This document shows, piece by piece, positions 32,535-35,978 of a stretch of DNA of 64,000 bases. The stretch is from contig PXRL01000022.1 of the NCBI GenBank assembly GCA_003020965.1, positions 62,001 through 126,000 of the forward strand, in the 5' to 3' direction. Numbering within the stretch: the stretch's first letter is position 1; the number at the start of each line of letters is the position of its first letter. The stretch comes from Halobacteriales archaeon QS_4_69_225. GTDB taxonomy: Archaea > Halobacteriota > Halobacteria > Halobacteriales > Haloarculaceae. A model generated the notes under the pieces. That model made no database searches and was not told the DNA's origin. It worked only from the letters and a program-made list of their open reading frames with translations. The translations under genes and the position numbers were made by a program.

Positions 32535-32560
32535 CCCCCGAGCTACTCGGATGGAATGCA

Positions 32561-33779
32561 ATGACATCGCACGAGGATACGTCGGCTTCGCCGGCGGGTC
32601 GAGTTCTTCCAGGGCACGTTAGATAGTACCTCGGAGATCAGCGAGGCCCGGATTTTCGACACGACGCTGCGCGACGGCGAACAGTCACCCCGTACGTCCT
32701 TTTCGTACGAGGACAAACGCGAGATAGCGGCCGTCCTCGACGAGATGGGAACCCACGTGATCGAGGCGGGGTTCCCTGTCAACTCCGAGGCGGAGTTCGA
32801 GGCGGTGCGGGACATCGCCGAGGCGACGTCGACCACGGTCTGTGGGCTGGCCCGCGTCGTGGACGGGGACATCGACGCCGCGTTGGAGTCCGGCGTCGAG
32901 ATGGTGCACGTCTTCTGTTCGACCAGCGACGTGCAGCTGCAGGATTCGATGCACGCAAGCCGCGAGGAGGCGCTGGAACGGTCGGTCGCGGCCGTCGAGC
33001 GCGTCGTCGACGCCGGCGCGACCTGCATGTTCTCGCCGATGGACGCCACGCGCACGGAGGAATCGTACCTGACGGCGGTCGTCGAGGCCGTCTCCGAGGC
33101 GGGGACGGACTGGATCAACATCCCCGACACCTGCGGCGTGGCGACGCCGGGGCGGTTCCGGGACGTCGTCGAGACGGTCGTCGCCCGCGCCGGCGACGCC
33201 GATGTCGACGTCCACACCCACGACGACTTCGGGCTGGCGACGGCCAACGCCCTCTCGGGGTTCGAGGCCGGCGCCGCCCAGGCGCAGGTGTCGGTCAACG
33301 GCATCGGCGAGCGGGCGGGCAACGCCGCCTACGAGGAGACGGTGATGGCGCTGGAGTCGGTGTACGACGTCGACACCGGCGTCGAGGCCGAGCGCATCAC
33401 CGAGCTGGCCCGACTCGTCGAGGCAAAGAGCGGCATCGACGTCCCGGCCAACAAGCCCGTCGTGGGACGCAACGCCTTCTCCCACGAGTCGGGCATCCAC
33501 GCCGCCGGCGTCATCGAGAACGCCGACACCTTCGAGCCCGGCGTGATGACGCCGGCGATGGTCGGCGCCAGCCGCGAACTCGTGTTGGGCAAACACACCG
33601 GCACCCACTCGGTCCGCGAGCGGCTCGAGGACGCCGGCTTCCGGCCGACCGACGGCGAGGTCCGGGCGGTGACCCGGAAGGTGAAGGACCGCGGCGCCCG
33701 CGACGAGCGGATCACCGTCGACCGGCTCGCGGAGTTCGCCCGCGAGGTCGGCGTCCGACGCACGGAGGTCCACGCCTGA
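32561..33779 (+). CDS. leuA: 2-isopropylmalate synthase (or citramalate synthase), apparent frameshift near the start
   Basis: The catalytic domain is complete from ARIFDTTLRDGEQSPRTSFS: substrate/metal motif RDGEQ, CMFSPMDATRTEES, VDVHTHDDFGLA (metal His pair) and SVNGIGERAGN. It ends without a long regulatory domain, about 405 codons in all, normal for haloarchaeal LeuA. From ATG 32561 the frame gives MTSHEDTSASPAG and then stops, while EFFQGTLDSTSEISEA, clearly LeuA, lies in another frame: 32561-33779 is one base more than a multiple of three. It is either mutated, mis-sequenced or started at a non-standard codon. It condenses acetyl-CoA with 2-ketoisovalerate (leucine) or pyruvate. Confidence 0.75.
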
Positions 33780-33806
33780 GATGGCCGTCGCTGATCGCCC
33801 TCGCCC

Positions 33807-33960
33807 CCGGCAGCCGCAGGTGCAGGTGCGAGTGCAGCCGCGGGTGCAAGCGCGGCCGCGGGCGCGGATGCAGCCACGGGTGCAACTGCAACCGCGGACG
33901 CAGGCGCAGCCGCGAGAGCAAATACAGCCACGAAGGCAAGTGCGCTTGAACCTACAACCG
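33807..33960. repeat. 6/12-bp periodic repeat between leuA and the ilvB leader
   Basis: Variants of GCAGCCGCGGGTGCA repeat with 6- and 12-bp spacing. The leuA frame, after its stop, would read as Ala/Gly-rich sequence; another frame reads Gln-Pro-Arg repeats from ATG 33781. No ORF with a convincing start is supported, so this is annotated as low-complexity spacer. Confidence 0.5.
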
Positions 33961-34000
33961 CGGACGCGCATCGACCACGACGGCCGTGTCGCGGGGAACG

Positions 34001-34008
34001 TTTATGTA
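34001..34008 (+). promoter_or_regulatory. TATA box of the ilvB leader transcript
   Basis: TTTATGTA centred about 29 nt upstream of the leader ORF start at 34034. It gives the ilvBNC-leuCDB operon a promoter separate from that of leuA and implies a leader of about 205 nt before ilvB. Confidence 0.55.
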
Positions 34009-34033
34009 GATTGCTCGTACTACCCATGTGGTA

Positions 34034-34108
34034 ATGACGGAGGCGACCGCCGGCCGACGCTCACCGCGTCCCGCCAGCGGCGCGATCCGTATTGTAGGGG
34101 CCGCCTAG
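34034..34108 (+). CDS. Candidate 24-aa leader peptide upstream of ilvB
   Basis: A 25-codon ORF (MTEATAGRRS at the start) whose ATG stands at the expected transcript start, so it should be translated leaderless. It ends Ile18-Arg-Ile-Val-Gly-Ala-Ala24-stop. ATT and GTA at codons 20-21 are rare in this GC-rich genome and are two of the three amino acids the operon makes. Codons 21 to 25 form the left arm and loop of a perfect hairpin. Together this looks like a branched-chain amino-acid attenuator. The function is inference. Confidence 0.5.
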   Translation: MTEATAGRRSPRPASGAIRIVGAA

Positions 34109-34115
34109 CCCCTAC
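34094..34115 (+). promoter_or_regulatory. Hairpin overlapping the end of the ilvB leader ORF
   Basis: GTAGGGGC (34094-34101) pairs perfectly with GCCCCTAC (34108-34115) around the 6-nt loop CGCCTA. The left arm begins at the Val21 codon and the loop and right arm contain the TAG stop. There is no U-run after it, so it is less like a classical terminator than a structure controlling translation, pausing or decay. A ribosome on the leader ORF would melt it. Confidence 0.55.
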
Positions 34116-34179
34116 ACCACCTTCCTCGTCGCCGCGACTCGCACCGACTTCCGATAGACGCAGTCACATCCACAGGAGT

Positions 34180-34239
34180 ATGCACACACGAGACACGAAC
34201 CGACGGTATCGCAGGAGAACGACCGGTGAGTCGCCATGA
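34180..34239 (+). CDS. Possible 19-aa Arg-rich ORF coupled to ilvB
   Basis: ATG at 34180, preceded by AGGAG one base away, gives 20 codons ([19 protein letters not shown]) whose TGA overlaps the ilvB start as ATGA. It may couple translation of the leader to ilvB, or be chance. GGTGA at about 34225-34229 also provides ilvB with an ordinary ribosome-binding site. Confidence 0.3.
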   Translation: MHTRDTNRRYRRRTTGESP

Positions 34240-35978
34240 GCGGCGAGCCGAAGGAGGCGCAGGCCGACGCCGAGGCGACCCCGACCGAGATCGACACCGG
34301 CGCGGACGCGGTCGTCCGTGCCCTGGAGAACGCCGGCGTCGAACACCTCTTCGGCGTCCAGGGCGGCGCCATCATGCCCGTCTACGACGCGCTGTACGAC
34401 AGCGGGATGACCCACGTCACGATGGCCCACGAGCAGGGTGCCGCCCACGCCGCCGACGCCTACGGCGTCGTCAGCGGCGAGCCGGGCGTCTGCATGGCGA
34501 CGTCCGGCCCCGGGGCGACCAACCTCGTCACCGGGCTGGCCGACGCCAACATGGACTCGGACCCGGTGGTTGCTCTGACGGGGCAGGTGCCGACGGAGTT
34601 CGTCGGCAGCGACGCCTTCCAGGAGACCGACACCGTCGGCGTCACCGGCCCGGTCACGAAGGCCAACTTCTTCGCCGACGACGCCGACGCCGTCGGCGGC
34701 GACGTCGGCACCGCCGTCGCGCTGGCCGACGAGGGCCGACAGGGGCCGACGCTGGTCGACCTCCCGAAGGACGTCACCAACGGCGAGACGAGCCGGGGGG
34801 ATCCGGGCGAGCCGCGGACGCCGTCGACGTACCGACCGCCGGAGACCGCCGACCCGGAGGCCGTCGAGGCGGCGACCGAGGCGCTCGTGGCTGCCGACCG
34901 GCCGGTCGTCCTGGCCGGCGGCGGCGTCGTCAGGGCCGACGCCTGCGAGGAGCTGCGCTCCTTCGCCACCGACCACGGGATTCCGGTGGTCACGACGATG
35001 CCGGCCATCGGCGCCTTCCCCGAGGACCACGACCTCTCGCTGGAGTGGGCCGGCATGCACGGCACTGGCTACGCCAACATGGCGCTCACGATGACCGACT
35101 GCGTGCTGGCGGTCGGCACGCGGTTCGACGACCGGCTGACCGGCGGCGTCGAGACGTTCGCACCCGACGCCGAGATAATCCACGTCGACATCGACCCCGC
35201 GGAGATCTCGAAGAACGTCGAGGCGGATTACCCGCTGGTCGGCGACGCGGCGGCCGTTCTCGAACAGGTCGCGGCCGCGACGTCCCGGTCGCCGTCGGCC
35301 GGCGCCTGGCGCGAGCAGTGTCAGGAGTGGAAGGAAGAGTACCCGATGGACTACGCCGCGCCGGCCGACGAGCCGGTCAAGCCGCAGTACGTCGTCGAGG
35401 CGTTCGACGAGGCGACGGCTGACGACACGGTCGTCACGACCGGCGTCGGCCAGCATCAGATGTGGGCCGCCCAGTACTGGACGTTCACCGAACCCCGGAC
35501 GTGGGTGTCCTCCCACGGCCTGGGGACGATGGGCTACGGCCTGCCGGCGGCCATCGGTGCCCGGGTCGCCGCCGACGACGACCGCTCCGTCGTCTGCTTC
35601 GACGGCGACGGCTCCTTTCTGATGACGTGTCAGGAGCTGTCCGTCGCGGTCCGGGAGGACCTCGACGTCACGGTCGTCGTGCTGAACAACGCGGCCGTCG
35701 GCATGGTCCGGCAGTGGCAGGACGCCTTCTTCGAGGAGCGACACGTCGCCTCGGAGTACCCCTGGGTGCCGGAGTTCGACGCGCTGGCGGAGGCGTTCGG
35801 CGCCCGCGGTTTCCGGATCGAGAGCTACGAGGAGGTCGAGACGGTCGTCGAGGCCGCGACGGCCTACGACGGCCCGAGCGTCGTCGACGCCCACATCGAC
35901 CCCGACGAGAACGTCTACCCGATGGTGCCGAGCGGCGGCGACAACGGGCTGTTCGCCCTCTCGGAGGACCAGCTGTGA
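34236..35978 (+). CDS. ilvB: Acetolactate synthase, large catalytic subunit
   Basis: 580 aa, normal length. The catalytic Glu lies in [14 protein letters not shown], the FAD/central domain spans about 200-340, and the thiamine diphosphate motif is [19 protein letters not shown] with VVLNN. An acidic 20-residue N-terminal tail is haloarchaeal. It condenses two pyruvates (or pyruvate and 2-oxobutyrate) in the first common step of valine, leucine and isoleucine synthesis. It heads an operon, overlaps ilvN by 4 bp, has GGTGA as its ribosome-binding site and lies behind the leader described above. Confidence 0.95.

Follow-up and report, generated by a model that had tools for sequence, protein, structure and literature searches.

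Organization of the ilvB upstream region

Throughout this work, the window refers to the whole stretch of 64,000 nucleotides that was analysed, positions 62001-126000 of contig C22 in the genome of a haloarchaeon. It carries a run of genes that, from the translations of their ORFs, we take to be ilvB-ilvN-ilvC-leuC-leuD-leuB, an operon for the branched-chain amino acids (BCAAs). Upstream of it is a leuA-like gene, also presumably named correctly from its translation, and between the two is a leader region with the following elements:

34001..34006, + strand: TATA box TTTATG of the leader promoter; the distance from its reference point (TATA +3) to the leader ATG is 30 nt here
34034..34108, + strand: leaderless leader-peptide ORF MTEATAGRRSPRPASGAIRIVGAA, 24 codons followed by TAG, read from the sequence
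34034-34036, + strand: leader ATG
34085..34096, + strand: putative regulatory codons Ile (ATC, 34085), Arg, Ile (ATT, 34091) and Val (GTA, 34094)
34093..34116, + strand: hairpin TGTAGGGGC-cgccta-GCCCCTACA, 9 bp, with the stop codon at the loop and right arm (fold, z-scores and pair counts)
34117..34127, + strand: G-less, pyrimidine-rich tract CCACCTTCCTC, candidate 3'-end or termination region, from the composition of 122 leaders
34180..34239, + strand: second upstream ORF, overlapping the ilvB ATG
34236..35978, + strand: from the ORF list, what we take to be ilvB (acetolactate synthase large subunit), presumably the first gene of the target operon

An earlier note, made from the letters of this region, had described a TATA box, a leaderless ORF of 24 codons, a hairpin starting at the Val codon and a second short ORF over the ilvB ATG, and direct reading confirms all of these. 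The hairpin had been given as a perfect stem of 8 bp. These 8 bp are present, with GTAGGGGC (34094-34101) pairing with GCCCCTAC (34108-34115), and the fold adds the pair T34093-A34116 for a total of 9 bp. The stop codon had been assigned to the right arm. As TAG occupies positions 34106-34108, only one of its bases lies there, while the other two belong to the loop (CGCCTA). The 210-nt leader folds with a z-score of -2.47, and 4 of 200 shuffles fold equally well. At its 3' end the second ORF overlaps ilvB by four bases (ATGA), with the ilvB ATG at 34236.

The two codons at the stem edge are indeed rare in this DNA, as had been noticed: ATT accounts for 1 of 49 Ile codons and GTA for 2 of 209 Val codons in the five BCAA genes of the window. 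One tRNA reads both ATT and ATC, by wobble, and the rarity of ATT therefore need not imply slowness.

Two features of the flanking sequence deserve mention. A low-complexity tract of the GCAG/CCGCGG type occupies positions 33781-33970 between leuA and the leader promoter, and it is open as a Q/R/P/V-rich frame that continues to 34239. Further upstream, the leuA frame is apparently broken near its start (32551-32640), with MTSHEDTSASPAGR and VEFFQGTLDSTSEI in different frames; either the sequence contains an error or the gene starts at a GTG further on. A leader for leuA itself was sought within the window and not found there.

Conservation of the leader among haloarchaea

A search for ilvB in 60 genomes, including that of the window (E <= 1e-150), found the gene in 55 of them, at 59 places when paralogues are counted. 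Fifty-three of these 59 places have the leader element; one of them, L054, is a degenerate copy, and its genome (G052) has no match to the covariance model introduced below. At L058-L060 (families f9 and f11) the element is absent. At L014, L043 and L045 the upstream stretch was too short to score, and the genome of L043 does match the model.

The covariance model, R1, was built from 51 leaders. At E <= 0.1, and with the genomes that supplied these leaders included in the counts, it matches 374 of the 392 genomes examined from the Halobacteriales, and 339 of the 345 that are of good quality. Conservation among relatives, on which the earlier note had staked its reading of the locus, is therefore extensive: a leaderless ORF whose Ile and Val codons abut a hairpin is kept before ilvB across haloarchaea. 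A second set of loci, referred to here as the named loci, was taken from the best 80 of 217 in a scan for ilvB, a selection that does not include Haloferax volcanii. L208, which has only 94 nt upstream, was omitted from it, and some of the resulting 79 loci share contigs with the first set. R1 matches upstream of ilvB in each of these 79 loci from the best 80 of 217, in 78 at E <= 4e-4 and in L223 at 0.055. Among the best 80, the closest relatives of the ilvB of the window are found in a Haloarculaceae MAG (90%) and in Natronomonas (80-81%). All such counts are less independent than binomial statistics assume, as the loci are related to one another and the two sets, relatives and named loci, have members in common.

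In a sample of 294 genomes of the phylum, R1 matches 51 genomes of the order. Three weak matches outside the order (E 0.003-0.007) were taken as chance. With nothing beyond these three outside the order, the leader would be either a haloarchaeal invention or an element that was lost elsewhere.

The leader ORF, its frame and its codons

An in-frame ATG placed by the TATA box is present in 129 of 132 leaders, with L022 and L250 lacking an in-frame ATG and L044 represented by too short a stretch. Removal of 7 exact duplicates gave a set of 122 distinct leaders, in 98 of which the TATA reference point and the ATG are separated by 30 nt. The ORF spans 16-54 codons in these 122, with 19 different lengths from ATG to stem. 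The frame is maintained over this range of lengths. In a blind test, a TATA box was picked regardless of frame, and the start was taken to be the first ATG that followed it by 24 nt or more; this ATG shares the frame of the stem codon in 116 of 121 leaders, against an expectation of one third. The window is one of the five failures because of an extra, out-of-frame ATG at 34026, which in this species lies closer to the TATA box than does the leader ATG. By comparison of sequences, then, the leader ORF is under selection. Its leaderless start would be normal for the group, since 72% of protein-coding transcripts in H. volcanii are leaderless (PMC4983044, in excerpt).

Immediately before the stem stands an Ile codon in 116 of the 122 leaders (ATT 89, ATC 26, ATA 1), and at two codons before the stem Arg (48), Ile (30) and Gly (25) are found. 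The stem codon is GTA in 120 of 122 and the next codon is GGG in 120 of 122. The invariance of GTA is partly selected for, since GTA[GC]GG was the pattern used to refine the position of the stem anchor (and a second valS leader, described below, was sought by GTAGTA). The N-terminal sequence of the peptide is free. This freedom, together with the range of lengths and the fixed position before ilvB in all 79 named loci from the best 80 of 217, is hard to reconcile with a leader that acts in trans as a small protein or small RNA and is no switch for ilvB. Such a function has a bacterial precedent in peTrpL (PMC7298713, in excerpt), and for the haloarchaeal leader it seems very unlikely.

In nearly all leaders the Ile is followed by V-G-A/V. 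This recurrent IVGA end would be expected of a nascent peptide that itself halts the ribosome or recognizes a ligand, with tRNA charging playing no part. However, V-G-A is dictated by the stem sequence GTAGGGGC and the remainder of the peptide is poorly conserved. Moreover, the valS leaders described below (FVGA, VVVGA, PVVGA and the unrelated SVVRGL) have only Val codons in common. We give an arrest peptide little credence.

Some leaders depart from the usual layout. At eight loci (L210, L220, L223-L225, L241, L274 and L281), from what we take to be genera of Natrialbaceae, the stem is kept and the stop lies beyond it (stop +24), which gives peptide ends of the IVGASSPHL type. L209 (Natronomonas sp. 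CBA1123) and L011 carry one C more than L015, so that the usual leader ATG no longer shares the frame of the stem codon, and another nearby ATG opens an in-frame ORF. The extra C is possibly a natural leader mutation or an error.

The hairpin and the tract downstream

The 30-nt hairpins of the 122 leaders have a mean z-score of -3.04 and loops of 3 to 11 nt. Of the 122 stop codons, 113 begin within the loop, 8 beyond the stem and 1 in the right arm, so that a stalled ribosome and one that has departed would leave different RNA behind. Five G-C core pairs are retained in nearly all leaders and the nucleotides GTAGGGG are near-invariant. The outer GTA:TAC pairs, on the other hand, are often broken, which suggests that GTA is retained for more than pairing. 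Compensatory changes in the stem, which had been proposed as a check, do exist and are scarce because the stem core is near-invariant. Alignment A1, from which L011 and L054 were left out, has 2 pairs with double changes, no better than shuffles; alignment A2, which was fitted to the structure, also has 2, above all 500 shuffles. Covariation in the stem can be considered real but thin.

A perfect inverted repeat just 3' of a promoter, with a near-invariant GTAGGGG, might also be a DNA operator. The palindrome TGTAGGGGC-N6-GCCCCTACA would in that case bind a repressor, for instance one of the Lrp family, and the ORF would be incidental. The variable loop is unlike the fixed spacing of a dimer operator, and an incidental ORF would account neither for an ATG in frame over all the different lengths nor for a stop that so regularly starts in the loop. 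The residue before the stem also varies with the downstream gene, as set out below, and we attach very little weight to an operator.

Beyond the stem, the composition changes. G makes up 4% of the first 13 nt after the right arm, compared with 24% at 20-59 nt (122 leaders). Pyrimidine runs of at least six at positions 4-20 occur in 56 of the 122 leaders and in 8 and 8 in control windows, and T-rich tetramers in the post-stem tract show a modest excess (77 of 122, versus 49 and 33 in control windows). The earlier note had reported that a U-run was lacking. This holds for the bacterial type, as none directly follows the hairpin in the 122 leaders and no T stretch is found there; what had been overlooked is the G-poor pyrimidine tract in its place. 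Excerpts of two studies bear on how transcripts end in these organisms: in H. volcanii, T stretches with TC mark intergenic transcript ends, and 59% of transcripts ended at a hairpin from a coding region that was put to the test (PMC7237163), while the preference of FttA is for U-rich RNA (PMC11616081). We regard a terminator formed by the hairpin and the tract as plausible.

Folding with RNAalifold of an 18-sequence alignment from the genus found no mutually exclusive antiterminator hairpin. The candidate that it offered, in which UAUUGU from the stem edge pairs with ACGGUA from the second ORF, was rejected: all six pairs are weak, five being A-U or G-U, and none shows double changes. Against Rfam, the region 33700-34400 gave two chance-level matches, neither of them at the leader nor above the gathering score. 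A T-box or another described Rfam leader family was discarded as an explanation, there being no covariance-model match at the leader.

The second ORF and the start of ilvB

Among 78 named loci (from the best 80 of 217), 69 have a second ORF with a stop codon that overlaps the start of ilvB, while shuffles give 10.8 +/- 3.2 with a maximum of 19. The overlap is four bases in 68 of the 69 and one base in the other. Beyond close relatives the peptide is unconserved, which fits a role as a ribosome feeder. The ATGA arrangement of translational coupling is present beyond chance here, and the coupling itself is putative. The same four-base overlap of stop and start is found in haloarchaeal termination-reinitiation pairs (Huber 2019, via an excerpt of PMC12548453), from which the pair before ilvB differs in that its upstream member is a tiny ORF and no known gene.

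This strongly conserved second ORF is what would be expected under translational control, in which stalling on the leader alters access to the second ORF or the stability of the RNA and thereby sets ilvB translation through the ATGA, with transcription not ended early. Termination-reinitiation coupling, as described for H. volcanii in the work just cited, would provide the means. However, the genus alignment of 18 sequences contains no strong conserved pairing of the hairpin with the second ORF or the ilvB start, the distance from stem to ilvB varies between 88 and 301 nt, and the G-poor pyrimidine tract after the stem is left unexplained. We consider control at translation alone rather unlikely, and second in likelihood to early termination.

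Leaders upstream of valS

Apart from the main ilvB matches, 22 chosen genomes contain 42 extra R1 matches at E <= 1. Twenty-eight were read: 18 lie before valS, 1 before an ilvB paralogue, and 9 (E 0.01-0.16) were dismissed as chance by context. The others are two known ilvB paralogues (L052 and L053) and 12 matches with E > 0.16 that were left out. A valS family search places valS directly downstream for six of the 18; the other twelve genes are presumably valS, from motifs in their translations. Like those before ilvB, these copies are leaderless ORFs, and they end in VFVGA, VVVGA, PVVGA and similar. Val is kept, whereas Ile within five codons of the stem is found in 0 of 18 (116 of 122 for ilvB). 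In the valS leaders L109 and L112, GGGCC/GGCCC replaces GGGGC/GCCCC, a compensated change.

An unrelated leader is found before valS in a further group of loci, L173-L202. It was sought by GTAGTA, and 27 of 30 valS loci were read. The peptide is typically M...SVVRGL, ending at a stop codon, and a tandem GTA GTA is present in 25 of the 27 loci, a count that has no shuffle control. From its codons, this looks like a second, independent Val-reading leader. Before valS, then, two unrelated designs both match their codons to the gene, and this provides the strongest evidence that the leaders read charging.

The SVVRGL-type group includes the genome of the window itself (L200, contig C25, upstream of 28589, minus strand). 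In several of its leaders a downstream CTACCGA could, by eye, pair with TCGGTAG of the GTA GTA codons, and 24 of 25 have a TTCT-like motif no more than 45 nt from the stop (no control). Among the leaders of ilvB paralogues, the peptide ends differ in Ile and Val content, with GIIGIIGIIGAPQ in L039/L113, NSIIGASY in L053 and SPVFVGAA in L052, each followed by the stop.

A proposed mechanism

We propose that the leader is a cis-acting, ribosome-mediated attenuator of the haloarchaeal BCAA operon with early termination as its most likely output, a reading that we hold to be fairly probable. What comparison bears out is the ORF, its frame, the identity of its codons matched to the downstream gene, the hairpin and the second ORF. 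Sensing of Ile- and Val-tRNA charging by the leader is well supported by comparison, and early termination at the hairpin and tract is probably the output. The attenuator reading of the earlier note is upheld in part, namely for the conserved ORF-codon-hairpin design and for the amino acid matching seen before valS; stalling and the output of the hairpin are parts of that reading that we infer.

Transcription would start at the leader AUG or immediately upstream of it, and the RNA would be translated at once as a leaderless message. When charged tRNA-Ile or tRNA-Val is scarce, the ribosome would stall at the ATT or GTA codon and cover the left arm of the stem, no hairpin would form, and RNA polymerase would proceed into ilvBNC-leuCDB. 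A ribosome supplied with both tRNAs in charged form would reach UAG and leave, and the GGGGC/GCCCC hairpin would form behind RNA polymerase. The transcript would then end 10-20 nt further on, within the G-poor pyrimidine tract, either intrinsically or in a manner that depends on FttA/aCPSF1. The predicted sign of control is that scarcity of charged tRNA turns the operon on. On read-through RNA, the second ORF would deliver ribosomes to ilvB via termination-reinitiation at the ATGA. As the position of the ribosome alone could open or close the hairpin, an alternative hairpin would be unnecessary.

Relation to known attenuators

Ribosome-mediated transcription attenuation is the general scheme of the bacterial ilv, leu and his attenuators, for example that of ilvBNC in Corynebacterium glutamicum. 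Like them, the haloarchaeal leader ORF ends in codons for the amino acids of the operon, adjoins a hairpin and precedes ilvBN(C). Two hallmarks of an attenuator are apparent at the level of sequence: a short leader ORF, conserved in frame, directly upstream of the operon, and pathway codons at the stem edge that match the gene presumably controlled. The terminator/antiterminator pair and the U-run are not apparent. Unlike the bacterial attenuators, the haloarchaeal leader is leaderless, has its stop inside a single conserved hairpin and few regulatory codons, lacks a U-run and a conserved antiterminator (none was found), and resides in an archaeal host.

The closest parallel for a switch with no alternative hairpin is E. 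coli pyrBI, where the position of the ribosome alone decides, as it would here, whether the terminator hairpin forms. The pyrBI attenuator senses UTP through RNA polymerase pausing, whereas the codons of the haloarchaeal leader would sense amino acids. Leaderless leader peptides are also known in actinobacteria. The leader-peptide regulators of that group resemble the haloarchaeal one in that a leader peptide precedes amino acid genes in GC-rich genomes (PMC1262725, in excerpt), but they are bacterial, and a three-hairpin design has been proposed for C. glutamicum ilvBNC (PMC11857589, in excerpt).

Overall, the haloarchaeal leader looks like a ribosome-operated switch of a type familiar mainly from bacteria. 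Attenuation that relies on a translating ribosome requires tight coupling of transcription and translation. For archaea, excerpts of two papers contain the speculation that the ribosome and FttA are mutually exclusive (PMC8116511; PMC11616081). A literature search at the level of titles and abstract openings found no archaeal leader-peptide attenuator for amino acid genes, which is not proof of absence in print, and the words ilvB and attenuation do not occur in the main texts of PMC4983044 and PMC6490895.

If the proposed mechanism is true, it would explain how the haloarchaeal BCAA operon and valS follow their amino acids. Its presence in nearly all searched haloarchaeal genomes makes the leader a natural and easily mutated test of coupling-based regulation in archaea. 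The short ORFs described here merit addition to annotation.

Candidate leaders before other genes

More broadly, haloarchaea may own a class of leaderless mini-ORF attenuators that read tRNA charging, with Ile/Val read before ilvB, Val before valS in two unrelated designs and possibly Thr before thrS. In each, the presence or absence of a ribosome between the hairpin and RNA polymerase would gate premature termination dependent on FttA/aCPSF1. Such a class would place translation-coupled attenuation in Archaea, independently arisen and with a single hairpin. For this wider idea we see the case as evenly balanced.

Inspection by eye revealed no such leader before ileS (26 readable loci of 27, L153 being inside the gene), leuS (9 loci), hisG (30 loci) or trpS (17 of 23 loci).

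Upstream of thrS, several haloarchaeal families (L313, L315, L316, L331 and L373-L401) have a conserved leaderless mini-ORF, MVGVRFTGAFARF and kin, that ends at a stop codon and contains the Thr codon ACA. The pattern of this mini-ORF is present in 72 of 293 genomes (0 in the reversed control), and a thrS-like LPDGS follows it in 28 of the 29 loci read. The start of the mini-ORF can pair with a stretch after its stop in 10 of the 29 by a strict 7-base test, and in more of them by eye.
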